Virus record (IMG/VR): IMGVR_UViG_3300008107_003605
Span: 1 to 22,856 of that record
Length of the DNA stretch: 22,856 nt
Direction: 5' to 3' (one strand)
DNA from: a virus
Under the pieces are notes generated by a model. It was not told where the DNA came from and did not search any database. It worked only from the letters and a program-made list of their open reading frames with translations. Made by a program: the position numbers and the translations under genes. Shown here piece after piece: positions 1-22,856 of this stretch. Every line of letters begins with the position of its first letter. Within the stretch, counting starts at the first letter, position 1.

Positions 1-3000
1 CAGCAAATGTCCAAATATTTGTACCTGCAGTAAGTGTTGGTGTAGTACCAGCAATTGTTAAATCACCGTAAATTGTAATTGCAACGTTTGATAGTGTAAA
101 GGAATTGTTGTCAATTATAAGATTTTTTACACCGTTACCTGAAGTAAATGTTACAGTGCCTGAAGTTGTTGATAGTTGAAAATTATATGATCTGTTTGAT
201 ACTGCTGGGCCAGCAGATATAGTTTTAGTTGTAGCTCCTCCACCAGTTAGTTGTACAAGAAGACTACCAGAGATAATTAAACCGTTATTAGTGGTAGTAT
301 CCCATACAATTTCTGCAGACGATGATGTGAGTACTATCCTACCAGTACCAAAATTTATTGCTCTAGTATTAGAGTTATTGGAGTCAAATTTATTACAAGT
401 AAAAGTAAATGCTCCTAGAGCTAGAGTTCCAAAAGTAAGAATAGCAGTACCAGTTGTTGTTAATGCATCCTGGAGAGTCCACTCACCTAGTGGACCATTG
501 AATGTAATTGCAGAAAATACATTACTATTTGTTGTAATAGTTAACCCAAGCTCACCGCCAGCAAAAGTTAGAGTACCTGTATAACTCTGTGTAAAATTGG
601 TTGAAGGTAAAGACAAGCTACCATAAACGGTTAAAGTTGAACTGCCACTAAGTGTCATATTATTATCTAAACCAGAGGCTGTCATTGAGTGACATACTGC
701 TCCGGTGCTTACTGTAACTGCAAAGCCTGCGCCTGAATCTGAGTTTGCATCAAATATAACATCTGTATATTGATCTGGAATATAAGAACTAACACTTCCA
801 CCCGAAGTATTTGACCAATTAGCATTAGAGGAAGCATTCCAAGTGCCACTACCACCTATCCAATAAAGAATAGGATTTGCAAACATTATATTGTTGTTGT
901 TGCCATTATCAACTGAACCGTTTACCATATACCATATATTTGGAACGTTTGCAGAAATATCTCTAACAGCTGCATATGGAACAACAATACGAGTTGCTCC
1001 TGTGTAAACAATATTTGCACGAGATCCAACAGTGCTTGCTCTAATAGTATTAGTAGACGAGCGAGTAGCTCCACTAGTCGTAAGAGAAGCAAATGTATTA
1101 GTAGTTGTTGATTGTAGTATTAAATCACAAGCATTTTGTAAAGTTAAATTATTAAAAGTGTTGCTTCCATTTACAGATAGGTGACCATTTCCTGCAGATC
1201 CTGTAAACGAGACATTGTAGTAAGTTTTGCTCCCACCACTGAAAGTCGTGGTTCCGGTATTAGTAAGTAAAATTGTAGATGAGCTAGCATTTAGAGTTAA
1301 ATTAGTACCATTTATATTCCACGATAAACCAGAGCTAGATATAGTCCAGGTACCAGTTCCTAAATTGAGTGTTCTAGTGTTAGTTACGTTTGAGCTGAAG
1401 ACTGGAATAGTAACATTATACGTGGCCGCACTAAATGTGCCGTTTGTCAGAGTCACACTAGAAGAAGTAGTTAAAGCACTTTGAAGTGTCCAAGAACCTC
1501 CTACACCATTAAATACAATTGGAAAATCGAGCGTTTTGCCATTAGTTGTAATTGTTTTTGAAGATGTTGCTGCAAACGTCCAATTGTTTACACCAGCCGT
1601 TAGTGTAGGGCTAGTACCAGCTATAGTTAAATTTCCGTAAATTGTAATAACTATATTAGTGGATATGCTAAAACTATTGTTATCAATAGTAAGATCTTTT
1701 ATAGTATCAGATGTTGTAAAAGCAACTGTTCCAGCTGTTGTAGATAATTGAAAACTTATAGAATTTGCTTCTGTTAAAGCACCTGCAGAAATTGTTTTGG
1801 TTACTGCACCACCACCTGTTAACTGGACAAGAACATTTCCATCAGTTGTTAAGTTAGTTACCGTAGCGGTATTCCAAACTGTGGCAAGAGTATTCAACGA
1901 TAATACAATTTTGCCGCCTACGCTAGACCTTTGTATTTTTCTAACACCTGTACCCGAAGAAGAAAATATACCAAATAATGTAAACGTATATGAATTTAAT
2001 TCTAATGTACCAGAAGTTAATGTAACTGTTCTAGATGTAGAGGTTCCAACAGACAAAGCACTTCCTAAACTGTAGGTTCCAGTACCACTAAACGTGATAG
2101 GAAAATCTAATGTTTTGCCATTAGTAGTAATAGTTTGAGTGCCAGAGCCTGCAAACGTCCATGCGTTTGCACCAGCGGCAAGTGTTGGTATTGTACCATT
2201 AATTGCCACATCACCATAAATTGTAATTGCAACGTTTGATAGTGTATAGGCGCTGTTAGACAAACCTAAACTTTTTACTGTATCTCCAGCTGTAAATGAT
2301 GTAGTTCCATTGAGAGATGAAATAGAAAATCTAATAGCATTAGCTTCAGATAATTGACCAGCTGAAATAGTTTGCGATATATTGTTAGTACCAAATACAA
2401 CAACTAAAACATTTCCATCAGTTGTTAAGTTAGTTACCGTAGAGGTATTCCAAAATGTTGCAGCTGATACAGGTCTTACGGTTATGATACCATTACCAGA
2501 CCTTTGAATTCTTCTAACACCTGTACCCGAAGAAATAAATGTACCATAGATATCAAAGCTGAACGAATTTACTTCTAACGTTCCTGTTGTTAATGTAACA
2601 TTTCTATCAGCAGCAGTTGTACCAATAGTTACAGCACTATTCAAAGAATAAGTCGCTGTTCCCGCAAACGTAATTGGAAAATCTAATACTTTTAAAGATG
2701 CAACAGTTATGTTTTGGGTTCCACCTGTTTTTGCAAAAGTTTGAGTGTTTGTTCCACCAGTTAGTGTCATGCCGGAGGAAACCGTTAGGTTCCCGTAAAT
2801 AGTTCTGGCAGCATTTGAAAGTGTTCCTGCAAATCCCGTAAAATTAAGAGACCGCACGTTGCCCGTAAGCGTTAGCGCGTAAGTCCCAGCGGTGAAATTG
2901 AAACTGATGCTATTTGCTTCACTTACCGCAGTGGCGGCTACTGTCGTAGCTGTTGCTGTATTGTTTGTGATATTGATAACAGGTGTACCAGTTACGGTGA

Positions 3001-3271
3001 CACCCGTTCCTCCAGTGAAAACTGTGCCAGTGCTATTAAGTGAAATTGTGTTGGTTCCAAACGCAAGAGTCCCTGTATAGCCGGTCATTGTTAGCGTTTG
3101 AATTGTGACGCTGCTGTCTAAGGTGGCAACGCCTGTTCCAGATGAGGCGTTAAAGATTGCAGCATCGTTCGTGCCAGGCACAGATGCGCCGCCCGCGCCA
3201 CCAGATGTCGCTGACCACCGAGCAGTATCACTCCAGTTGCCGGTACCGCCAACCCAAAATCTGTTTGCCAT
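1..3271 (-). CDS. Giant repeat-rich tail fibre / adhesin-like protein (C-terminus outside window)
   Basis: I read this frame codon by codon: it starts at ATG 3271 and has no stop through position 2, giving at least 1090 residues, with the C-terminus outside the window. The start has a strong AGGAG six bases upstream and lies three bases after the preceding stop. The protein is overwhelmingly Ser, Thr, Asn, Gly and Val, with alternating beta-strand patterns typical of beta-solenoid fibres. A W-x-GG-x-G-x-W...W-S motif opens it (W6) and recurs near W804, each followed by a P...D...IF-(N/D)-A segment, so it looks like at least two large modules. Within the first, a unit of about 193 residues repeats three times; a matching piece returns near residue 1069. 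No enzymatic motif was seen. Position at the end of the fibre island suggests a virion adhesin or receptor-binding fibre. Base composition looks more A+T rich than the virion genes. Function is inferred. Confidence 0.85.
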   Translation of the reverse strand, partial: MANRFWVGGTGNWSDTARWSATSGGAGGASVPGTNDAAIFNASSGTGVATLDSSVTIQTLTMTGYTGTLAFGTNTISLNSTGTVFTGGTGVTVTGTPVINITNNTATATTVAATAVSEANSISFNFTAGTYALTLTGNVRSLNFTGFAGTLSNAARTIYGNLTVSSGMTLTGGTNTQTFAKTGGTQNITVASLKVLDFPITFAGTATYSLNSAVTIGTTAADRNVTLTTGTLEVNSFSFDIYGTFISSGTGVRRIQRSGNGIITVRPVSAATFWNTSTVTNLTTDGNVLVVVFGTNNISQTISAGQLSEANAIRFSISSLNGTTSFTAGDTVKSLGLSNSAYTLSNVAITIYGDVAINGTIPTLAAGANAWTFAGSGTQTITTNGKTLDFPITFSGTGTYSLGSALSVGTSTSRTVTLTSGTLELNSYTFTLFGIFSSSGTGVRKIQRSSVGGKIVLSLNTLATVWNTATVTNLTTDGNVLVQLTGGGAVTKTISAGALTEANSISFQLSTTAGTVAFTTSDTIKDLTIDNNSFSISTNIVITIYGNLTIAGTSPTLTAGVNNWTFAATSSKTITTNGKTLDFPIVFNGVGGSWTLQSALTTSSSVTLTNGTFSAATYNVTIPVFSSNVTNTRTLNLGTGTWTISSSGLSWNINGTNLTLNASSSTILLTNTGTTTFSGGSKTYYNVSFTGSAGNGHLSVNGSNTFNNLTLQNACDLILQSTTTNTFASLTTSGATRSSTNTIRASTVGSRANIVYTGATRIVVPYAAVRDISANVPNIWYMVNGSVDNGNNNNIMFANPILYWIGGSGTWNASSNANWSNTSGGSVSSYIPDQYTDVIFDANSDSGAGFAVTVSTGAVCHSMTASGLDNNMTLSGSSTLTVYGSLSLPSTNFTQSYTGTLTFAGGELGLTITTNSNVFSAITFNGPLGEWTLQDALTTTGTAILTFGTLALGAFTFTCNKFDSNNSNTRAINFGTGRIVLTSSSAEIVWDTTTNNGLIISGSLLVQLTGGGATTKTISAGPAVSNRSYNFQLSTTSGTVTFTSGNGVKNLIIDNNSFTLSNVAITIYGDLTIAGTTPTLTAGTNIWTFA
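1480..3050 (-). repeat. About 579-nt (193-residue) tandem repeats inside the giant fibre gene
   Basis: Corresponding landmarks recur about 576-579 bases apart. A CCGTAAAT-type landmark lies near 1635, 2214 (variant) and 2793. The segment encoding a LDFPI(T/V)F core recurs near 1530, 2105 and 2680. A 35-base stretch is identical at 1832-1866 and 2408-2442. A further copy lies at 66-100, of which about 30 bases are identical to 2217-2246, but it is out of register because a different module (about 250-1480) intervenes. The copies are diverged at protein level yet keep codon phase, so they are coding duplications rather than a regulatory array. Confidence 0.8.
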
Positions 3272-10893: not shown

Positions 10894-12846
10894 TTAGAAC
10901 TTTCCTACAACTTCAGTGAAGTCAACACCCGTGCGAACTGCTACGAAGTTGAGCTGGATGAAGTTGATTGAACGAGCTGGCTTGATGTAGATATCACCGA
11001 TGAACTCGTTGCGGTCAATAACTTCTGGCGTATTGTTTGTTTCGTCACAAACAACACGGAAGTCTGTGATACCACGACGACCCTGAACGTCACGCAGGAA
11101 TGGTTCTACAAGAGCCTTGAACTGAGCACGAGTGAACGCATCGTTGAACTCGAACAGAGTATACTTGGCTGCTGTAGCGATTGCCTTTTCCAGAACAATG
11201 AACAGACGACGAACGTTGATACGGTCAAAAGCAGATGGCTTTGTGAGCATCGTCTTATCACCGAACAGGATAGTTCCTTCGCCTGGGAATGTTGTGATTG
11301 GATTGACACCAGCCTTGTAGAGGGCGTCACGTTCAGACTTATTAGGATTGAACGCCAACTTAATAACATTCTTAATCTGTCCGCGGTTGAAACCTGCTGG
11401 TGAGTACCAAGGATCACGCTCGATATCCGTGCGAACCATTGTACCAGCAGTGTCGCCGTTGCAAGGAACGTAGCGGAAGAGATCGTTATACTTGTCGTAC
11501 TGATACTTCCATCCAGAATCCATTACTGCGTAAGAAGTTGAGATACCAATTTGGTTTTTAAACGCGATGATACTATCTACTTCTGCACCAGCATATCCAG
11601 AGTTATTCACGACGTCAGCTTGACGTGGCGAGAAGATAGCAATACAGTCTTTACGATACTCAGTGATGTTATTGATGATATGAATAGGAACAGTCGAAGT
11701 AGAGTGTCCGCCACCAAGAATCAACGAAACGTCAACAGATTCTGCAGACTTAAACAGATTGTATCCGTTGATGTAATCTGCAGCACGTGGCTGTGCTCCG
11801 TCACGCCCGTTGTAGAGAGTAAAGTTAACTGGCTTGTTGGTTGTTCCAGTTCCGCTGTTATGATTTACAGCAGATGTAACAGATCTTGTTGTGATACCTG
11901 TGACGTGTGCAGCCCACCACAGCCAACGTGAATTCTTATTGACGTAGTTCGAATAGTGAATAGTTGTTCCGTCTTCACTATGTGCGTTAGATGCTTTCGA
12001 CAGAGCAGGAAACACTTCAAGAATCGTATCTGCAACGCCAGTAATACCACCGAGATTGTCGACAACTACAACATGCATTTCGTCGTTTGATCCGCCATAC
12101 TGAGCAGCTTCTGCTGAAGTACCTGGAGCAGATGGTGCGTAGTTGTAGTATTCCCAACGACGAGTTACTGAAGTTTGACCAGCTACTGTGTTGCCAACAT
12201 ATGCACTAGAAAGCGTAAGTGATGTTGCGTTTGTGATCGTAGAAACTTGACATTGAATCTTATCGGGACCAATCAGGAGAATGTCGCCTTGAGCAATCTG
12301 ATTGCTAAAGTTTGTTCCAGCACCGGTTACGGCTACAGAGTTGTTTGAAACAGAAACAGCTCCAGTTAGCGTGCTTTCGTAAGCGTTGGCTGACAAGCAA
12401 ACAGAAACGCGAAGATTGTTACCGAGAACGCCCGGATACTTAGCAACCCAAGCTCCAACGCCTGTGATGCCATTTGAATAGTTAGCATCGTAATCATCTT
12501 CATTCTTGATGATTGTGTTTGTTGTATTTGATTGGTTTGCGATAGCGTTTCTTGCGCGAGATGTGTTCGAAGACTTCGTGCCGCCTTCGTTGATAACACG
12601 GACTGTATAGAGAGCGTTTCCGTATGCAAGGAAGTTAGCAGCTGTGAAAAAGTCTACAGCTGTATTTGTATTTGGCTGATAGAATTGCTTTGCGAGCGTA
12701 TCTTCTGTATCAAGAAGGACGCGCTGTCCTACTGGACCCCACTTAAAGTGACCAGCGAATGCACCAGTTGTCGTGCTAACGGCAGGGATAATCGTTGTGA
12801 GATCGATCTCACTGACATTAACTCCTGGAGAAACTTGGAAACCCAT
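10894..12846 (-). CDS. gp18: Contractile tail sheath protein (T4 gp18 family)
   Basis: This 650-residue protein (T4 gp18 is 659) forms the contractile sheath around the tube. The N-terminus MGFQVSPGVNVSEIDLTTI with VSTTTGAFAGHFKWGPVGQ is characteristic. The middle (about residues 165-250) is a variable, surface-exposed insertion rich in Thr/Ser. The conserved C-terminal core is present: RGQIKNVIKLAFNPNKSERD, GVNPITTFPGEGTILFGDKT, RINVRRLFIVLEKAI, FEFNDAFTRAQFKALVEPFL, and FIGDIYIKPARSINFIQLNF near the end. ATG 12846 has AAGGAG nine bases upstream, and a TATAAATA box lies 62 bases further up. Synteny 17-18-19 is exact. Confidence 0.96.
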   Translation of the reverse strand: MGFQVSPGVNVSEIDLTTIIPAVSTTTGAFAGHFKWGPVGQRVLLDTEDTLAKQFYQPNTNTAVDFFTAANFLAYGNALYTVRVINEGGTKSSNTSRARNAIANQSNTTNTIIKNEDDYDANYSNGITGVGAWVAKYPGVLGNNLRVSVCLSANAYESTLTGAVSVSNNSVAVTGAGTNFSNQIAQGDILLIGPDKIQCQVSTITNATSLTLSSAYVGNTVAGQTSVTRRWEYYNYAPSAPGTSAEAAQYGGSNDEMHVVVVDNLGGITGVADTILEVFPALSKASNAHSEDGTTIHYSNYVNKNSRWLWWAAHVTGITTRSVTSAVNHNSGTGTTNKPVNFTLYNGRDGAQPRAADYINGYNLFKSAESVDVSLILGGGHSTSTVPIHIINNITEYRKDCIAIFSPRQADVVNNSGYAGAEVDSIIAFKNQIGISTSYAVMDSGWKYQYDKYNDLFRYVPCNGDTAGTMVRTDIERDPWYSPAGFNRGQIKNVIKLAFNPNKSERDALYKAGVNPITTFPGEGTILFGDKTMLTKPSAFDRINVRRLFIVLEKAIATAAKYTLFEFNDAFTRAQFKALVEPFLRDVQGRRGITDFRVVCDETNNTPEVIDRNEFIGDIYIKPARSINFIQLNFVAVRTGVDFTEVVGKF

Positions 12847-12907: not shown

Positions 12908-12915
12908 TATTTATA
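12908..12915 (-). promoter_or_regulatory. T4-type late promoter (TATAAATA) upstream of gp18
   Basis: A perfect TATAAATA reads on the minus strand in the 83-base gap between the gp17 stop and the gp18 start. In T4 this octamer, centred about ten bases before the start of transcription, is recognised by the gp55 late sigma factor and needs no -35 box. It would give a leader of about 55 bases ending in a strong AAGGAG, suiting high expression of sheath and tube. The octamer sits inside an A+T palindrome (CGTTTT...AAAACG). Confidence 0.6.
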
Positions 12916-16675: not shown

Positions 16676-17416
16676 TTATCCGATCATATCAGTGACAGGC
16701 AGCGAGTAGTTGTTAATAACTTCTTGATCTAGCTTTTCGACTTCTTCGCGCGCCTCATCCCAGATCTTTTGACCATTGAACGTCACACCGCCAGGAAGAT
16801 TCATACCTTCGAACTTCTTAAGGTTCTCACCCCACTGACGCTTAACCAACGCAGTCGCATACTGCTTGAGCCATGGGTCGTTCCATACGTCAGGAAACTC
16901 TTCTGCATTGACAGTCTTATAACCGTCGATGATAATGAAACTGCCTACAAGAACGTCGTCTTTCCACGCCATATCAACATATAAGCGATCTTGATGGCGA
17001 TTGAAGCGAATTGGTTTCTTACCGACGAACACTTCTTCAAGGAACTCGATGTGACGCATCGCCACAACATACGGCGTAACTGACACGCTAGAAATGTTGA
17101 ATAGTTCGTTGAGATGGAGCTGATAGCGGATATTGAACAGATTCATCGCGCCATACGAGTCGTTCACGTCGAAGATGCGCGTGACACCGATCATGTCTTC
17201 TGGGAGTGTTATATACTTATTATCGCGATCCGCTTCCGTTACTTGATACGGAAGATAGACGTGCTGCATACCGTCATAGTGATAGTCGCGGAACTTGAGC
17301 AGAGCGTCGTCGATACGATCTTCAACCTGCTCGTCATCTACGTTGATGTCGATGACAGGAGCGCCAAGGCGGCGTAGGATATAGTCCTTAAATTCTTGTC
17401 TAGATGCTGTAGCCAT
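16676..17416 (-). CDS. gp13: Neck protein (T4 gp13 family)
   Basis: This 246-residue protein (T4 gp13 is 309; shorter forms occur in cyanophages) sits under the portal and seals the DNA-filled head together with gp14. Residues 5-50 (RQEFKDYILRRLGAPVIDIN, DDEQVEDRIDDALLKFRDYH) are the classic start, followed by YITLPEDMIGVTRIFDV. The C-terminal half has GSFIIIDGYKTVNAEEFPDVWNDPWLKQYATALVKRQWGENLKKF, GVTFNGQKIWDEA and EEVEKLDQEV. ATG 17416 has GGAG seven bases upstream. A TATAAATA box overlaps the end of the upstream radical SAM gene, making gp13 the first gene of the late virion block. Confidence 0.94.
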   Translation of the reverse strand: MATASRQEFKDYILRRLGAPVIDINVDDEQVEDRIDDALLKFRDYHYDGMQHVYLPYQVTEADRDNKYITLPEDMIGVTRIFDVNDSYGAMNLFNIRYQLHLNELFNISSVSVTPYVVAMRHIEFLEEVFVGKKPIRFNRHQDRLYVDMAWKDDVLVGSFIIIDGYKTVNAEEFPDVWNDPWLKQYATALVKRQWGENLKKFEGMNLPGGVTFNGQKIWDEAREEVEKLDQEVINNYSLPVTDMIG

Positions 17417-17442: not shown

Positions 17443-17450
17443 TATTTATA
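17443..17450 (-). promoter_or_regulatory. T4-type late promoter (TATAAATA) upstream of gp13
   Basis: A perfect TATAAATA octamer on the minus strand overlaps the radical SAM stop codon and lies 26 bases before the gp13 ATG. Transcription would begin around 17436, giving a leader of about 20 bases. That leader contains GGGAGC and GCTCCC, which can pair across an 11-base loop and partly mask the GGAG ribosome site. It marks the boundary between the accessory block and the virion genes. Confidence 0.6.
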
Positions 17451-18579
17451 TCTTATAGCCAAAAACGTTTTCGAAACTTTGATTACGAACGTTATCTAGC
17501 GTTTTAGTCATAGAAACGAATAGAGAATAGTTGCAATCGCGTCTATCTAGAAGCTGTTTCCTCAAAGCCAAAAGCTCGTCGACGTATATCGAAAACAATC
17601 TATTTGTTAGTTTCTTTACGGCGTCATCTATCTGTTTCACTGCGCGAATCCTCAGATCTATGTTTAAGTTGGCATAGTCAAGAGGAGCTGGAACTCGTAC
17701 TACATGTGCATTGAATTTCATCAGATGAGCTTGTCTAAACTCGTATTCTTGTATCTCTACGAATAGGCTGGCTAAAGCAGACACGTCTAAAATCGAATAT
17801 GCGCTGATCGTAGAGTGTATCCCTAATCTTATTGGGAGCTCTGCGAACTTAAAGATATTAGCACGAACAGTTTCCCAATTAGTTCCATGCCTTTGATATT
17901 CAGCAACTTTACCTACAGCATCGATACTGAGGATGAGTTCAGCTTTTTTGAATTTCAATAGCTTCTCAATAAAGATAGGATTGTATACGCTACAGTTCGT
18001 ATAAATGCGAAGAGTGATATCGTCTTGTCTATTGTTTTCTATCAAAAAATCTAATAGATCATAATATCTCTTCATCAGCATAGGTTCGCCGCCAGTTAGA
18101 TACAACGAGTTCAGATTTTTAGATACCTCGAGTATTTGCGCCCAGTTATCATCTGTCATGTCGGAGTTAGAATTTGGGCTGTAAAATCTACTCAATTCTG
18201 GATGATCTTCGATTTCTCTTTCTATCTTCACACTATCGGTAGGATTGCACATTCTGCAAGCAAAGTTGCACAGATTGCTTTCGCGAAGCTCTAAGTGTTT
18301 AGTTTGCGTTTCTATTTCATAGTTTTCGTCAAGGAAATGACCACGAATACTCTTAAGGCCCTGACGCTCTTTTATCCAGCATGAGTTGCATCGTTCTGGT
18401 TTTTTGTTATCTAAGAACTCTTGTTTAAGTGAAGATAACCAATCGCTTCCAAAGTATTCTTTCGGTGACATACTTTGAGTACCCATCGTGCAGCATGGAC
18501 TTGCAGCATTGCTATGATAGTATAAACCTACCCAAGGAGCTGGACAAAAGTTATTTGCTTGTTGCACGATAAACACCAT
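17446..18579 (-). CDS. Twitch-domain radical SAM protein
   Basis: A radical S-adenosylmethionine enzyme of about 377 residues. The start is placed at ATG 18579 rather than TTG 18627, because the next residues lead into the family's N-terminal FCPAPWVGLYYHSN block. Residues 12-70 carry extra cysteines (C12, C29-C30, C64-x2-C67), resembling an N-terminal twitch/SPASM-like auxiliary cluster domain. The radical SAM cluster motif is C104-x3-C108-x2-C111 (CNFACRMC), followed by LTGGEP (161-166), which binds the SAM amino group, and an ILSIDAVG strand. Proteins of this type are frequent in aquatic phages, but their substrate is unknown to me. The start overlaps the cyclase end by 29 bases and the stop overlaps the gp13 promoter. 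Peptide or sugar modification is possible; no precursor peptide is evident. Confidence 0.9.
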   Translation of the reverse strand: MVFIVQQANNFCPAPWVGLYYHSNAASPCCTMGTQSMSPKEYFGSDWLSSLKQEFLDNKKPERCNSCWIKERQGLKSIRGHFLDENYEIETQTKHLELRESNLCNFACRMCNPTDSVKIEREIEDHPELSRFYSPNSNSDMTDDNWAQILEVSKNLNSLYLTGGEPMLMKRYYDLLDFLIENNRQDDITLRIYTNCSVYNPIFIEKLLKFKKAELILSIDAVGKVAEYQRHGTNWETVRANIFKFAELPIRLGIHSTISAYSILDVSALASLFVEIQEYEFRQAHLMKFNAHVVRVPAPLDYANLNIDLRIRAVKQIDDAVKKLTNRLFSIYVDELLALRKQLLDRRDCNYSLFVSMTKTLDNVRNQSFENVFGYKI

Positions 18580-19474
18580 CCCAATCTTTGCCTGGAGGAT
18601 TAGCTTCCAGTTCTTCAATTCGCTCAAGCATCATCTTGTAGTAATCGCGAAGTTCACCTTTGAATGCGCCTTCAAGATATAGGATATGCTGTTTAGCCAA
18701 ATCCCAATCTTGACGGCGATAGTAGCGTAAGAAATCTTCGTGTGTCTTTAGATATGCTCTATTGACACCTGTTCCGTCAACGATAGTAAAGATGCGAACG
18801 CCTTTCGTCTTACCCTTGACGGCGATGCAGTCGAGCTCTGCTAGTGGATACTCTCCGTCGAGCAGTTCTGCTGTTCGCTCACCAATGATCATCTTGACAT
18901 GATATGGCTTACTCTGTCCTTCTAAGCGCGAAGCCAAGTTGACACTATCGCCCAAACAGGTATAATCAAATCTTTGGTTAGAGCCCATATTCCCAACGAC
19001 AACATTGCCAGAATTGACACCAAGACCCATACCAAAAGCAGGAACGCCTTCAGATGCGATAGAAGCGTTAAAAGCCTCAAGGTCGCCGAGCATTGCGAGA
19101 GCCGTACGAACTGCATTTTTAGCATGATCGCGATCATCAAGAGGCGCATTCCAAAATGCCATCTGCGCATCCCCGATATATTTGTCGAGTGTTCCATTGT
19201 TCTGTAGGATCCTTGCTGTCATCGCTGTCATGTAGCGATTCATAATCTGCGTTAGTCCCTGAACGTCGCTTCCATAATGCTCACTAATAGCAGTGAAGCC
19301 GCGCACATCAGTAAACATAATTGAAAGTTCACGAGTCTCTCCTCCTAGGCGTAATAGCTCAGGATTCTTCTGAAGTTTCTCAACAAGAGCTGGTGATAGA
19401 TACGTTCCAAACTGCTTTTTGATTTGCAGCTTCAGACGATTCTCGCGCGCGAAGTTACAAACAGAACGAGCAGT
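18551..19474 (-). CDS. Class III adenylate cyclase catalytic domain (frame-disrupted 3' part of a CHASE2-cyclase)
   Basis: This domain makes a cyclic nucleotide from NTP, most likely cAMP. The homologous frame is open from 19474, just after a TGA. It reads ARENRLKLQIKKQFGTYLSP, then LVEKLQKNPELLRLGGE, the usual lead-in of bacterial CHASE2-cyclases. The first conventional start is ATG 19318, which would cut off that lead-in and part of the first beta strand. Numbering from that Met: metal-binding D4 (FTDVRGF) and D50 (YIGDA), Lys46 and Thr120 at the purine-specifying positions (the K/T pair of class IIIb cyclases), and transition-state N127 and R131 (NLASR). All key residues are present. VKGKTKGVRIF closes the domain, followed by a short helical tail. 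The frame is shifted by one from the CHASE2 gene, and the three membrane helices expected between them are absent. It is probably damaged, or an assembly error. Confidence 0.88.
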   Translation of the reverse strand, partial: TARSVCNFARENRLKLQIKKQFGTYLSPALVEKLQKNPELLRLGGETRELSIMFTDVRGFTAISEHYGSDVQGLTQIMNRYMTAMTARILQNNGTLDKYIGDAQMAFWNAPLDDRDHAKNAVRTALAMLGDLEAFNASIASEGVPAFGMGLGVNSGNVVVGNMGSNQRFDYTCLGDSVNLASRLEGQSKPYHVKMIIGERTAELLDGEYPLAELDCIAVKGKTKGVRIFTIVDGTGVNRAYLKTHEDFLRYYRRQDWDLAKQHILYLEGAFKGELRDYYKMMLERIEELEANPPGKDWDGVYRATSK

Positions 19475-20427
19475 TCAAGAGTCTTCGCGAAAGGCAGTCG
19501 GGTTATACTTGATCCATCTATCAAAGTTTGCAATGCAGCAGCTTGAACTTCATGGCTCCACTTTTCACCCAACGGCGTGCCGATAATCCCACCAACGCCT
19601 TCAATCGTCAATCCTAAGACAACAATTTTTCCTTCGACTTTATCTGCTGTGATTTCTGTTGCATCGGTGCGCTCGAAACTGTTGTTCCATGTTGTCCAGA
19701 TACGCCCACGCTCGTCGGTCGCGATTGCGGGGAACTGCGGGATGCGGACTGCTTCGACACCAGCTTGACCCGTCTTGATTTGATAAGATGGATCTCCAGC
19801 CACTGCTCGTAGGGTTTCCAATACAAGTGAAGGATACAGTGAATCGCCAATCCTAACCAGCATAGGCAAGCGACGAACAACGCCGTCACGCTCAGGTGTT
19901 GCAGCGAGAATCCCAACCCCTTCGGCAACGTCTGCGAAAGATCGTAGAGGAGATACAGCCCCAGGCCAAGAATAGACCCATGAATTAGGGTCATCGCCGA
20001 TACTAGCAAAGCCTCTGCGAACTGCATCTGGCGCTCTTCGCTGAGCTGTTGGTGTTTGTGATATAACGACACCACCAGCTGCGATAGACTTTGCCAAATC
20101 GGCATCACCACCAGCACGATCTTTTTCACTAAAAAGAATAGGAACGACGATAGCTGCAGCACCAGCAGCACGCAGACGTTCAATAGTCGCAGCAATGTCT
20201 CTACGGTCGAATGGCCATTGACCGTATTCTTGAACTGACTTTTCGCCAAACTCAACCAGAACAACTTCATCAGACTTCTTAGGCTCCAGAGAGGTTATAA
20301 AGTAGTCAAATGTTTTCAGTTGTAAAGTTTCAATGGGAGATGGGTTCAATATGAATAGGGTGACAAGCATCAAAGCTGATGCGATAGCCGCCCACGTTGA
20401 AGTCAGATATTTGCCAAGTGTTTCCAT
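19432..20427 (-). CDS. CHASE2 extracytoplasmic sensor domain protein (5' part of a sensor cyclase)
   Basis: A 331-residue protein from ATG 20427, two bases after the upstream stop; a TTG at 20478 also opens this frame but lies inside the previous gene. Residues 12-27 are a membrane helix (AAIASALMLVTLFIL) that would anchor the protein with the rest in the periplasm. The CHASE2 domain fills about 32-310: LKTFDYF, VVLVEFGEKSVQEYGQWPFDRRD, a GAAAIVVPILFSE block, GVGILAATPERDGVVRRLP, SLYPSLVLETLRAVAG, KIVVLGLTIEGVGG and SHEVQAAALQTLIDG. The next membrane helix starts at LELLVLF but breaks off, and the frame ends nine codons later. In intact relatives three helices and a cyclase follow; here the cyclase resumes in another frame. 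The ligand of CHASE2 is unknown. Sequence style is alphaproteobacterial, suggesting acquisition from a host. Confidence 0.88.
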   Translation of the reverse strand: METLGKYLTSTWAAIASALMLVTLFILNPSPIETLQLKTFDYFITSLEPKKSDEVVLVEFGEKSVQEYGQWPFDRRDIAATIERLRAAGAAAIVVPILFSEKDRAGGDADLAKSIAAGGVVISQTPTAQRRAPDAVRRGFASIGDDPNSWVYSWPGAVSPLRSFADVAEGVGILAATPERDGVVRRLPMLVRIGDSLYPSLVLETLRAVAGDPSYQIKTGQAGVEAVRIPQFPAIATDERGRIWTTWNNSFERTDATEITADKVEGKIVVLGLTIEGVGGIIGTPLGEKWSHEVQAAALQTLIDGSSITRLPFAKTLELLVLFVTSRARIV

Positions 20428-20429
20428 AA

Positions 20430-20679
20430 TCAATATTGGTTGACGACATAAGGAGAAGAAGGGCAGCTGAAACCACAAGAAACGCTAAGGCTGAAAGACT
20501 GTGGAGTATTTCCAGACTGCGTGACCGAGACGCTGATCCCGTTGCCATCCAGTTGAAGATTAGCAGAATGACTAGCATTAAGCTGAGTGATAGAAACATT
20601 TTGTGTCGATCCTATAATGTTCACGGTTGCGTTATTTAGCGGAAACGGTCAATAGTAGTAGGATTGCTAATGTTTTCAT
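20430..20679 (-). pseudogene. Short secreted curlin-like protein, frameshifted after the signal peptide
   Basis: ATG 20679 overlaps the preceding stop as ATGA and encodes a clear signal peptide, MKTLAILLLLTVSA, but the next codons are AAA TAA, so this frame ends after 15 residues. One base further the frame continues to 20430: NNATVNIIGSTQNVSITQL, then NLQLDGNGISVSVTQSGN, and a tail with two cysteines (SCGFSC) ending VVNQY. Removing one A from the AAATAA at the junction restores a single 82-residue precursor with an Ala-x-Ala-like cleavage region. The alternating V-x-I-x-Q and N-x-I-x-V-x-Q-x-G pattern is that of curlin repeats. It could be real decay, a sequencing error, or very unlikely +1 recoding. 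A GTG at 20624 could start the downstream part, but without the signal peptide. Confidence 0.7.
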
Positions 20680-20939
20680 TTATGACCTTCGTATTTACCG
20701 TTGGCTACATCTTCGTCATACCATTGACGCATAATTTTTTTGGCTTGTTCTCTGGATGAAATTGGGTCAGTATAATCACCTCTATCGTGCGTGTTGCTTA
20801 CGATCCAACCAGAAAAGCTATCACCTCTAGACTTCATGTATCTTTTAGCTTCGATATGACCATACTCCATCCTATAGCCATGATCTATGAATTTAACTTT
20901 TGATTTCGCTTCGGTAACAAATTCTTTGAACGGTATCAT
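20676..20939 (-). CDS. Small protein with T4 internal-protein-like capsid-targeting leader
   Basis: This 87-residue protein starts at ATG 20939, one base after the FecR gene stop, and ends in an ATGA overlap with the next gene. The N-terminus MIPFKEFVTEA lines up position for position with MKTYQEFIAEA, the capsid-targeting sequence of T4 internal proteins: Glu6, Phe7, aliphatic 8, Glu10 and Ala11 coincide. In T4 the prohead protease gp21 cuts after that Glu, and the mature protein is packaged and injected with the DNA. Here the mature form would be 77 residues, basic and aromatic (FIDHGYRMEYGHIEAKRYM, then GWIVSNTHDRGDY). No family was recognised for the mature part and there is no signal peptide. 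Packaging is inferred from the leader alone; similar leaders occur in other small proteins of T4-like phages. Confidence 0.8.
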   Translation of the reverse strand: MIPFKEFVTEAKSKVKFIDHGYRMEYGHIEAKRYMKSRGDSFSGWIVSNTHDRGDYTDPISSREQAKKIMRQWYDEDVANGKYEGHK

Positions 20940-20940
20940 G

Positions 20941-22044
20941 TCAGTTACCCTGCTTGATAGTAATAGTTGTGGTTCCTGCGCTGTTTACCATCTGTGTAAT
21001 CTCAATACCGTCTTGTGTTAGTTTCATTGTCATACTTTGGCTGATAGGAACTGTAACCTGAGCATACGCATTGAACGACTCACGATACAGCGTCACGAAA
21101 TCATCTTCAACAAAGTATTTGAGACCTGTTGCTGAATTGTATTTAGGCAATAAAGCGTTGAACTCTACGAGCTCATTCGTGAGCATCTGCGAGCTAGAAA
21201 GATCCAGCAGATTGATAAGGAAGTCGCTATCAAGGAAGTTACGATCTAGCTTGTTATACTCAGTCAGATAGTTCTTATCCAGCTCAGTATATTTCAGCAG
21301 GTCTTTACCAAGCAAATCTTCGTCAAGATAGTTGTAACCTCTAGCTTCCGTATGAACTTCTACCGTCGCGGCTTTTGGTGGTGTTACAATAATTAGATTG
21401 TTGATCTGATCTAGATTCAAGTTCATGATATTCGATCTTGGTGTAGCCATGCTTGTCTGAACGTTGACAGTTTCAAACGCTTTCGTAAGCCAAATAGTCC
21501 CCATGTCCGTTGTTACGGAGATGGAACCAACAACGCAGTCCCTTTCAATATTCTTCCATCCAACAGGACAAGAAGGTAGAAGAATAATAGTAGAGCGCCC
21601 AATCTCATCGACTGTCCCAGAAAAGTCGGTTCCGCGAACTCCGATAGTAGCCGTCGGAGTTTCGACCATGACTTGTTGCGGGTCGCTCTTCGCGATCTGT
21701 CCTGAGGCATACTTGATTGTTCCTAACGCCATCTTCATTCCGAGCTTGCCAGTTTTCTTACTGTCATCGTAAACGAAGTTGTCGATTACTAATCTAGAGT
21801 GCTCAGTGATTTGAACTCTTGTGTCGTCTCGGAACGTGATTCCCGCTTTACCATTAGCGGTCGTAATAATATCCTTCATCTCAACGCCACTAGACAGTGC
21901 GCTGGGAATCACGTTCGTATCTCTTTTTATCTCAGTTGGTCCTGTTAGCTCAGTTACTTTACCAATGTCCGCCTTAGTTGTGGTTGGACTTGATAGTAAG
22001 AGTATTGCCAGAACCAGTGATTGTAGAAATGACCTTAGAGTCAA
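20941..22044 (-). CDS. FecR-domain periplasmic protein with curlin-like C-terminus
   Basis: This 367-residue protein starts at TTG 22044, with AAGG upstream, inside the preceding gene (71-base overlap); the start keeps a signal peptide (LQSLVLAILLLSS, cleavage likely near KA-DIG at 25-26). The FecR domain spans about 28-185: GKVTELTGPTEIKR, a GVEMKDIITTANGKAGITF segment, then DDTRVQITEHSRLVIDNFVY and the hallmark VETPTATIGVRGTDF (127-141). Two cysteines (159, 170) may pair. Residues about 230-300 hold four YLDEDLLGKDLL/YTELDKNYLTEYNKLDRNFL-type acidic helical units. The final 30 residues (MKLTQDGIEITQ, then TTTITIKQGN) have the alternating pattern of a curlin repeat. FecR domains occur in surface-signalling and sensory proteins; here it may sense or organise the secreted curlin. 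No ATG start is available nearby, so the true N-terminus is uncertain. Confidence 0.85.
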   Translation of the reverse strand: MTLRSFLQSLVLAILLLSSPTTTKADIGKVTELTGPTEIKRDTNVIPSALSSGVEMKDIITTANGKAGITFRDDTRVQITEHSRLVIDNFVYDDSKKTGKLGMKMALGTIKYASGQIAKSDPQQVMVETPTATIGVRGTDFSGTVDEIGRSTIILLPSCPVGWKNIERDCVVGSISVTTDMGTIWLTKAFETVNVQTSMATPRSNIMNLNLDQINNLIIVTPPKAATVEVHTEARGYNYLDEDLLGKDLLKYTELDKNYLTEYNKLDRNFLDSDFLINLLDLSSSQMLTNELVEFNALLPKYNSATGLKYFVEDDFVTLYRESFNAYAQVTVPISQSMTMKLTQDGIEITQMVNSAGTTTITIKQGN

Positions 22045-22651
22045 CTCCGCCGCCTTGCTTGATATCTACTGTGTTTGTTGCACCTAAGATATTCACATCA
22101 GCGTCGTGACCATTAGTGCCAGCAGCACCTGTCTGAATAATGTTGACATCGTTACCACCACCACCAGCAATAAGAACAGTGCTCTTAGCGCCAGCAACAG
22201 CTGAAGAATCATTTTGAATGTTTACAGTATTGTTATCAGTATTGATTGTAACATTCGAGATAGTCAAACCATCTGCGGATTGAGTTACAATATTTCCATC
22301 ACCCGTGATCGTATTATTGATTATAGAGCTTGTACAAGTTCCGCTAACACCGCAAGCGATATTTACAGTATTGTTGTCACCAGTTACGAGTGAGTTCACT
22401 TGTACGTCGTCACCCTGCACGTTTAGTGCAGTGACGTTAGAGTTACCAATCTGATCAATCGTGACAATGTTGTTTTGACCGTTGATTATAGCCTTATCGG
22501 TAGGATTGCCAATCGCATTCGAATTGCCTGTTTGGGTCATAGAAATTGTAGAACCACTACCGATTTGGTCTACATACACACTATTTCCCGCGGCGTTTGC
22601 ATATTGAAACATAACCAAGAATGACAATACAGTCATACTTGAGAGTTTCAT
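21974..22651 (-). CDS. Secreted curlin-repeat protein (major candidate fibre subunit)
   Basis: This 225-residue protein starts at ATG 22651, nine bases after the CsgG stop, with AAGGGG upstream. The first 20 residues, ending QYANA before AGNSVYV, are a signal peptide. The mature part is Asn/Thr/Gly/Val/Ile-rich with curlin-like units: NSVYVDQIGSGSTISMTQTG, NNIVTIDQIGNSN, NNTVNIQND, NDVNIIQTGAAG, NTVDIKQGGG and a final GNTLTIKSNHN. Each unit alternates hydrophobic and polar residues and often ends in Q-x-G. Curlins are exported through CsgG and polymerise outside the cell as amyloid; the adjacent CsgG gene supports that route. A C-G-V-x-x-x-C pair (about 110-116) is unusual for curlin. Its end overlaps the FecR gene by 71 bases. 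Confidence 0.82.
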   Translation of the reverse strand: MKLSSMTVLSFLVMFQYANAAGNSVYVDQIGSGSTISMTQTGNSNAIGNPTDKAIINGQNNIVTIDQIGNSNVTALNVQGDDVQVNSLVTGDNNTVNIACGVSGTCTSSIINNTITGDGNIVTQSADGLTISNVTINTDNNTVNIQNDSSAVAGAKSTVLIAGGGGNDVNIIQTGAAGTNGHDADVNILGATNTVDIKQGGGVDSKVISTITGSGNTLTIKSNHN

Positions 22652-22660
22652 ATTTTCCCC

Positions 22661-22856
22661 TTACTTTTTCTTGATACTCCAGAGCTTCTTCTTAGCTCCC
22701 TCCTTAATCATATCTGCAACTGCTGCCTCAATAGCGATTCTGACAGCGTATGTCGTAGGTTCATTTACAGAGTTACCAGCTTCAAACTCAACGGACTTAG
22801 TGCCTACGTCGATGAACTTGAATACGTTTGCGCCAGCTCCTGTGCTCAATACGGTT
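22661..22856 (-). CDS. csgG: CsgG-type curli secretion channel, C-terminal fragment
   Basis: Only the last 64 or so residues are in the window; the rest lies beyond position 22856, so a TTG at 22849 is not its start. The visible part NVFKFIDVGTKSVEFEAG, then NEPTTYAVRIAIEAAVADMI and KKLWSIKKK, matches the CsgG C-terminus from memory: a (V/F)F(K/R)F(I/V)D start, a G-x-x-x-NEP turn, a long helix of the periplasmic vestibule, and a Trp near the end. CsgG forms a nonameric lipoprotein pore in the outer membrane that exports curli subunits. The neighbouring curlin-repeat gene fits this job. The lipobox and beta-barrel strands are outside the window and could not be checked. Confidence 0.8.
   Translation of the reverse strand, partial: TVLSTGAGANVFKFIDVGTKSVEFEAGNSVNEPTTYAVRIAIEAAVADMIKEGAKKKLWSIKKK

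Follow-up and report, generated by a model that had tools for sequence, protein, structure and literature searches.

The closest described relative of the locus considered here is a gene cluster of pelagiphages, csgF-csgG-csgA/B-FecR-csgA/B-adenylate cyclase, which was reported together with metatranscriptomic evidence of its expression (Wittmers et al., 2022; PMC9599517). Earlier reports comprise csgFG with unnamed neighbors (Zaragoza-Solas, 2020; PMC7029224) and the csgFG of phage Melnitz, which was taken as a pore without fiber subunits (Buchholz, 2022; PMC9004378). Phages with such a module are common in aquatic viromes, and the published readings of its function disagree, being fiber production, a lysis pore, and iron regulation. 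The stretch of DNA analyzed here (the window; 22,856 bp) is the entire IMG/VR virus record IMGVR_UViG_3300008107_003605, both ends of which are open, and carries the end of csgG, two curlin-like genes, a FecR gene, and a gene for a CHASE2-containing class III cyclase. The window phage is a member of the already described group with the phage curli module, in a further phage lineage; the doubt expressed in an original prediction from the sequence as to whether the full combination had been described is settled by the work on pelagiphages (PMC9599517).

These genes form a real, conserved phage module that is inherited as one unit. When the cyclase and FecR were used as baits, csgF, csgG, curlin, FecR, and CHASE2 were all present in 47 of the 47 loci with at least 6 kb of sequence upstream of the cyclase; the cyclase bait covers the best 80 of at least 598 matches, with very distant cyclases outside the sample and contigs that are not fully independent. 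With CsgG as an independent bait, both curlin and FecR were located downstream in 40 of 40 loci and the CHASE2 cyclase in 39 of 40, and the co-occurrence anticipated by the original prediction is therefore borne out from two sides. The upstream csgF that it expected was found in the relatives, where a full csgF-csgG is present in every contig that extends far enough and csgF precedes csgG in 47 of 47; in the window this position would lie beyond the end of the record, which stops within csgG. CsgE, the periplasmic adaptor of canonical enterobacterial curli, was not detected in any of the 17 module-carrying genomes (E. coli rings served as the positive control), which leaves room for another periplasmic gate. 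With regard to the region before csgF, an open reading frame (ORF) with a ThyX-like RHRSFxFQEFSQRY motif closely precedes this gene in L035, L037, L042, L043, L047, L048, L050, and L099, and thyX lies near the module in Melnitz too, while L028 and L033 carry a radical S-adenosylmethionine (SAM)-like ORF (CxxxCxxC) there. A csgG match of 39% also occurs in OR851715.1, a 1.5-kb record filed as Salmonella phage S.Kent 1-2-1, which is probably bacterial DNA.

Within the module, FecR is the protein that would connect secretion with signaling. Its AlphaFold2 (AF2) model comprises a signal-peptide-like hydrophobic helix (residues 2-17), a beta domain (28-206), a linker (about 214-296), and a C-terminal beta domain (309-365); the mean predicted local distance difference test (pLDDT) value is 72, with about 80-90 in the domains and about 40 in the linker, which is disordered, and the predicted template modeling score (pTM) is 0.50. 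The last strand of the C-terminal domain resembles curlin repeats (ITIKQGN and similar). This curlin-like tail is present in 64 of 68 phage copies and 6 of 8 curli-linked copies on contigs of metagenome-assembled genomes (MAGs), and in 0 of 70 FecRs outside curli clusters; the pattern was chosen after the alignment had been viewed and the sequences share ancestry, and the associated Fisher value is not a probability. I363 and Q365 are conserved in at least 90% of 49 FecRs (down to 26% identity), and the region preceding them diverges. In Foldseek searches, FecR matched the FecR domains of anti-sigma regulators, including PupR (E about 1e-4 to 2e-4), and, weakly, the "cell surface anchoring domain" of an adhesin (5ix9; 60 residues, root-mean-square deviation 1.0, TMt 0.72, E 0.06). 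Of 72 bacterial FecR loci without curli, at least 30 have a CHASE2 receptor gene next to FecR, and an operon of Burkholderia that acts on biofilm encodes an exported FecR protein together with a CHASE2 kinase (PMC5192318). Because of this adjacency and the Burkholderia pair, FecR is read here as the putative periplasmic partner of CHASE2, and the original suggestion of a periplasmic sensor acting through cyclic adenosine monophosphate (cAMP) is judged reasonable; the purposes proposed with it, namely a superinfection block, cell aggregation, or metabolic retuning, are conjectural. Two of the bacterial records, L119 (Proteobacteria UBA2136) and L122 (Kordia TARA_039), have FecR-CHASE2 at identical coordinates, a sign that one of the assemblies may be contaminated.

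The CHASE2 sensor and the cyclase, which had been listed as two genes, are encoded by one uninterrupted ORF in 64 of the 66 relatives whose sequence is long enough (L090, one exception, runs off its contig), and one family extends across both parts, so the two-gene reading was rejected. The six catalytic residues tested, namely the two metal Asp, the Lys/Asp substrate pair, and the transition-state Asn and Arg, are kept in the window and in 68 of 69 homologs, the exception being Melnitz, where the Asn is changed to Ser. In the cyclase part, the window differs from the related contig L004 by 16 synonymous and 0 non-synonymous codon changes, and from L005 by 75 and 8, respectively. As judged from these comparisons, the cyclase is predicted to be catalytically complete and under purifying selection. 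A phage-encoded cAMP receptor was considered and discarded, since no protein or domain that binds cyclic nucleoside monophosphates was found in 14 large phage records, and any cAMP target would thus be that of the host. At the secretion end, the profile of the first curlin-repeat protein (cur1) matches solved curlins (8c50, E 2.7e-6; CsgA 8enq, E 6e-3) and its structure model is all-beta with a pLDDT of 84, although a fold search with it against the PDB gave no match at E <= 0.001. By profile and model, cur1 is a true curlin relative, in agreement with its earlier annotation, and cur1 and the second curlin-like protein (cur2) are predicted to be curlin subunits for export, with amyloid formation suggested by sequence and fold.

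The arrangement of promoters is informative with respect to timing. A T4-type late promoter motif precedes gp13, the next phage gene beyond the module in the window, in 26 of 26 relatives (background 0.015 per 70 nt), so that gp13 begins a new transcription unit and does not continue the operon as had been proposed. In 24 of 48 loci this motif also occurs 26-68 nt ahead of the gene that opens the curli unit, compared with 0 of 48 for each of csgG, cur1, fecR, and CHASE2 (random positions, 0.84%). It is therefore probable that the curli unit is expressed late in those phages that carry the motif.

A small membrane/coiled-coil pair is a further fixed component of the module. Beside it lie the genes of two paralogs, about 92 and 100 aa long (range 92-105), both of which combine a hydrophobic segment at the N-terminus with a charged helical part; they are related to one another (hhalign E 6e-12) and both belong to phrog_18771, a family of unknown function. 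All 35 loci that are long enough to judge contain both: in 20 the two genes immediately precede csgF, and in 15 they follow the cyclase in convergent orientation. When one of the small proteins served as bait, FecR, curlin, and cyclase were recovered at each of the 27 loci whose flanks are complete. The phrog_18771-type family is restricted to six of 50,697 phage records (Melnitz strains and HTVC008M), all of which have FecR and the cyclase. The second small protein keeps an invariant stretch, IALIDRIRMLDNDLIRL, between homologs that are 44% identical overall. Neither protein has a significant Pfam match (weak YvrJ, E 0.24), and one weakly resembles the holin family phrog_4898 over about 20 N-terminal residues (E 1e-3 to 1e-4); both resemblances are too weak or short to serve as names and were dropped for this purpose. 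One or two histidine kinases have been reported at the position before csgF (Wittmers et al., 2022; PMC9599517). The two proteins of about 92-105 aa found there in the present relatives have no Pfam kinase domain; they may be the proteins reported as kinases or different ones. With regard to this question, no curli gene is annotated in the first 45 kb of the 59.8-kb podovirus record MW574966, and candidate contigs gave no match in a portal search.

Taken together, a late surface-amyloid exporter whose FecR links the fiber or channel to the CHASE2 adenylate cyclase is the best explanation of the whole, and we give it an about even chance of being correct. In an intact module, produced at a late stage of infection, CsgG and CsgF would build a channel in the outer membrane through which two curlin subunits are exported. 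FecR would be exported to the periplasm and act there as an anchor, its curlin-like C-terminal domain engaging the channel or fiber by way of the long flexible linker, while its FecR domain would work with the periplasmic CHASE2 domain of the cyclase; the state of export or assembly might then be reported as cAMP to a host receptor, with the small membrane/coiled-coil pair as an additional fixed component. Such a coupling of amyloid export to cAMP via FecR and CHASE2 appears to be the best-supported mechanism, and it may serve a late remodeling of the cell surface. A more specific version is doubtful: the exporter would have its own feedback line, in that the curlin-like domain of FecR is threaded or docked into the fiber base or the CsgG/CsgF channel, while the FecR domain remains periplasmic and switches the cyclase, and the small pair would be obligate partners. 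Several points weigh against the proposed coupling as a whole. The FecR tail is a short motif, defined post hoc in sequences that are not independent, and the match to 5ix9 is weak by its E-value (0.06); the contacts of FecR with CHASE2 and with the fiber are deduced from linkage, the tail, and a moderate model (pLDDT 72, pTM 0.50). Half of the 48 loci have no late-promoter match, the window copy of the module is broken in two genes, and no clumping of infected cells was seen by the authors of the Melnitz study (PMC9004378). The late promoters, the FecR tail, the FecR-CHASE2 pairing, and the small pair nevertheless make the function of the module testable. If the more specific version is true, no pathway known before would report amyloid secretion as cAMP, and the FecR-CHASE2 pair, which is widespread in bacteria, would be a general sensor of surface structures; the proposed coupling, if right, would explain such gene pairs at large.

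The breakage in the window is the basis of the alternative that survives best, and the features of the region are given here, from the record end inward.

22661..22855, minus strand: csgG, outer-membrane curli export channel, last 64 codons only (record end); Pfam CsgG, E 8.5e-7.
21974..22651, minus strand: cur1, curlin-repeat protein, 225 aa, predicted to be exported; Pfam Curlin_rpt above cut-off, E 8.9e-5.
20941..22044, minus strand: fecR, FecR-domain protein, predicted to be exported; Pfam FecR, E 4e-11.
20676..20939, minus strand: 87-aa ORF with the start MIPFKEFVTEA (resembling the T4 internal-protein targeting start); insertion in this record only.
20430..20679, minus strand: cur2, short second curlin-like gene, frameshifted; signal peptide 20679-20632, body 20624-20430.
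18551..20427, minus strand: gene for a CHASE2-transmembrane-class III adenylate/guanylate cyclase, disrupted; the CHASE2 portion runs to 19432, and the cyclase portion is counted from 19450.
17446..18627, minus strand: twitch-type radical SAM gene; Pfam E 9e-10; NCBIfam NF033640, 269 bits against a 170-bit cut-off.
17443..17449, minus strand: ATAAATA, core of the T4-type late promoter for gp13; motif match.
16676..17416, minus strand: gp13-like head-tail adaptor, first gene of a separate late structural unit; phrog_211, E 3e-42.

In the CHASE2-cyclase gene, the two halves of which match Pfam separately (CHASE2, E 1.5e-39, ORF 19432-20478; class III cyclase, E 3e-21, ORF 18551-19450), 185 bp are deleted at about 19455/19456 in comparison with L004, so that the transmembrane helices are lost and the frame is shifted. 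The family phrog_35576 spans both halves (residues 4-324, CHASE2; residues 391-681, cyclase), and about 325-390 are missing. Sensor, transmembrane helices, and cyclase are thus not joined in one chain in this record, as they are in the relatives. In cur2, a stop codon comes after the signal peptide MKTLAILLLLTVSA, and the body is read in a different frame, about 14 bp being missing in comparison with L005, L010, and L011, where the gene is intact as a 102-codon open frame. The 87-aa ORF sits between fecR and cur2. The internal-protein-like small gene of the original prediction does exist in the form of this ORF; it is inserted in this record only, being absent from the relatives, and has no match among the 50,697 phage records. 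The operon is consequently not intact here, contrary to the earlier description.

On the strength of these two deletions and the inserted gene, all in one operon, it might be supposed that the module is decaying in this phage, or that the record is misassembled, and that nothing functional is built; we regard this as a serious possibility, somewhat short of even. The two frame-breaking deletions may be real decay or assembly error. However, L004, which is 99% identical to the window, has an intact CHASE2-cyclase gene, its differences from the window in the cyclase domain are all synonymous, and the frame is intact in 64 of 66 relatives. Because of the intact twin, the lack of amino-acid changes, and the state of the relatives, the lesions appear to be recent or artifactual.

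A role in lysis comes next. For Melnitz, CsgG/CsgF has been proposed to be a gated pore or pinholin-like lysis timer and not a fiber exporter (PMC9004378). The late promoters fit a function at the time of lysis, and the module is always accompanied by the small membrane pair, one member of which is weakly holin-like at its N-terminus (phrog_4898). The premise of the proposal was that csgA/csgB are absent, yet curlin repeats score above the Pfam curated cut-off in both Melnitz and HTVC008M, and a curlin gene is present in 47 of 47 and 40 of 40 loci. Since the curlin subunits are linked with the rest as one unit, the main ground for a lysis pore is removed. Moreover, the inner membrane is the site of holin action, but the CsgG family consists of lipoproteins of the outer membrane, and the holin similarity is limited to about 20 residues. 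A pore for lysis is thus an unlikely function of the module.

Still less probable is that the cyclase acts independently, raising cAMP to retune metabolism or to counter nucleotide-based defense and merely sharing the transcription unit of the curli genes. Its apparent catalytic completeness and purifying selection would be consistent with such a role, and the PADLOC models of Pycsar cyclases match its catalytic domain. On the other hand, the cyclase is curli-linked in 39 of 40 CsgG loci and its sensor is a large extracytoplasmic domain; the Pycsar-type matches reflect the common class III fold and no effector gene accompanies them. A Pycsar-type defense was rejected, because the PycC models match the catalytic domain only and no effector model was matched among the scanned neighbors. 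Finally, an iron-dependent regulatory role of FecR, whether over the module or over iron uptake (Wittmers et al., 2022), is very improbable: sequence and fold both confirm the FecR domain, which is common to the phage protein and the FecR/PupR anti-sigma regulators, but in the sequence and model of the phage protein the signal-peptide-like helix leads straight into the beta domain, without the N-terminal cytoplasmic anti-sigma part of those regulators before the membrane helix, the curlin-like tail is absent from non-curli FecRs, and the bacterial relatives pair with CHASE2 receptors. The phage FecR is therefore probably not an iron regulator.

The module appears not to be confined to phages. 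A scan of bacterial genomes revealed csgF-csgG-curlin(s)-FecR-CHASE2 cyclase in one run, as in the phage module, in three apparently chromosomal alphaproteobacterial contigs (L105, L107, and L111). Two come from MAGs of Caulobacteraceae and one, 705 kb long, from a MAG of Hyphomonas, their chromosomal status being judged by size, guanine-cytosine (GC) content, and neighbors. These clusters differ from those of phages in their higher GC content and cellular neighbors, and the small membrane pair is lacking genome-wide. FecR and the cyclase have been stated not to occur within bacterial type VIII secretion system (T8SS) operons (Wittmers et al., 2022; PMC9599517). Among 385 alphaproteobacterial genomes, CsgF was found in 5, and FecR and CHASE2 were not nearby in 4 of the 5; in view of this and of the chromosomal copies, the statement is true of most bacterial curli operons, but not of all. 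The trees conflict on the direction of transfer: that of CsgG sets the chromosomal copies outside the phages (Shimodaira-Hasegawa-like approximate likelihood ratio test 88), whereas that of the cyclase places them inside (100/100). Five further contigs labeled as MAGs of Flavobacteriaceae, Rhodobacteraceae, and Pirellulales (L104, L106, and L108-L110) carry the phage module and the small membrane pair, and look like misbinned phage contigs.

As for the neighborhood of the module in the window, the gene set originally predicted (the csgG end, curlin, FecR, CHASE2, class III cyclase, radical SAM, and gp13) was confirmed throughout by Pfam or family matches, and the genes do run in one direction, all on the minus strand, and either overlap slightly or are separated by short gaps. 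The inclusion of the last two in the system does not hold, since just 7 of 80 loci have a radical SAM gene after the cyclase, and 27 of 80 have gp13 there, which has its own promoter; both are lineage-specific neighbors, the former optional, and they were rejected as parts of the module. In L071 (3825-8892), four tandem radical SAM matches follow the cyclase. A chimeric join of bacterial and phage DNA near 17446, named by the original prediction as what would undo it, was rejected because L004, a different record, is continuous across the join at 99% identity and the radical SAM-gp13 junction recurs in L005, L010, and L018. The remainder of the record is of T4 type (gp14, sheath stabilizer, small and large terminase, sheath, tube, and portal), gp13 and gp14 being head-tail adaptor/closure proteins by family match. 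The nearest cultured gp13 proteins are those of Stenotrophomonas phage DLP6, Caulobacter phage Cr30, and Pelagibacter phage Mosig (46-54% identity; 50-54% for DLP6 and Cr30), and the window phage, presumably a virus of water bacteria, is a T4-type myovirus distant from all cultured carriers of the module. Its tail sheath gene (10894-12846, 650 aa) contains an inserted stretch at about 160-346 that matches tail-fiber families, and an ATAAATA late-promoter core lies before it at 12908-12914. The GC content, 43% for the whole window, is 36-39% at 1-3271, under a 1,090-aa open frame at the record end, and 42-49% in most of the rest.

Complete modules, with the gene order of the window lineage, are present in Pelagibacter phage HTVC008M and Methylophilales phage Melnitz, whose FecR and CHASE2 proteins are 34-45% identical to those of the window; the curlin, FecR, and cyclase genes were not recognized as one module in the corresponding reports (PMC7029224; PMC9004378). 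Outside phages, the BiofilmReg operon of Burkholderia (PMC5192318) likewise places an exported FecR-LysM protein beside a CHASE2 membrane receptor and is linked to biofilm, but contains no curli genes and has a histidine kinase as its output in place of a cyclase. In Sinorhizobium, the CHASE2 adenylate cyclases CyaD1/D2/K are fed by the outer-membrane protein NsrA (PMC13001267), although the signal there is a plant protein and no FecR or curli is named. The small membrane pair, the FecR tail, the late promoters, and the chromosomal copies were not found in the literature searched. The pelagiphage T8SS module (PMC9599517) shares csgF, csgG, curlin, FecR, a second curlin, and adenylate cyclase with the present lineage in the same order. 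By contrast, the window belongs to a different T4-type lineage with a GC content of 43%, and two small membrane/coiled-coil proteins occur where that study has a histidine kinase; the FecR tail, the late promoters, the identity of the cyclase as a CHASE2 receptor, and the chromosomal bacterial copies are added here to the description of the module.

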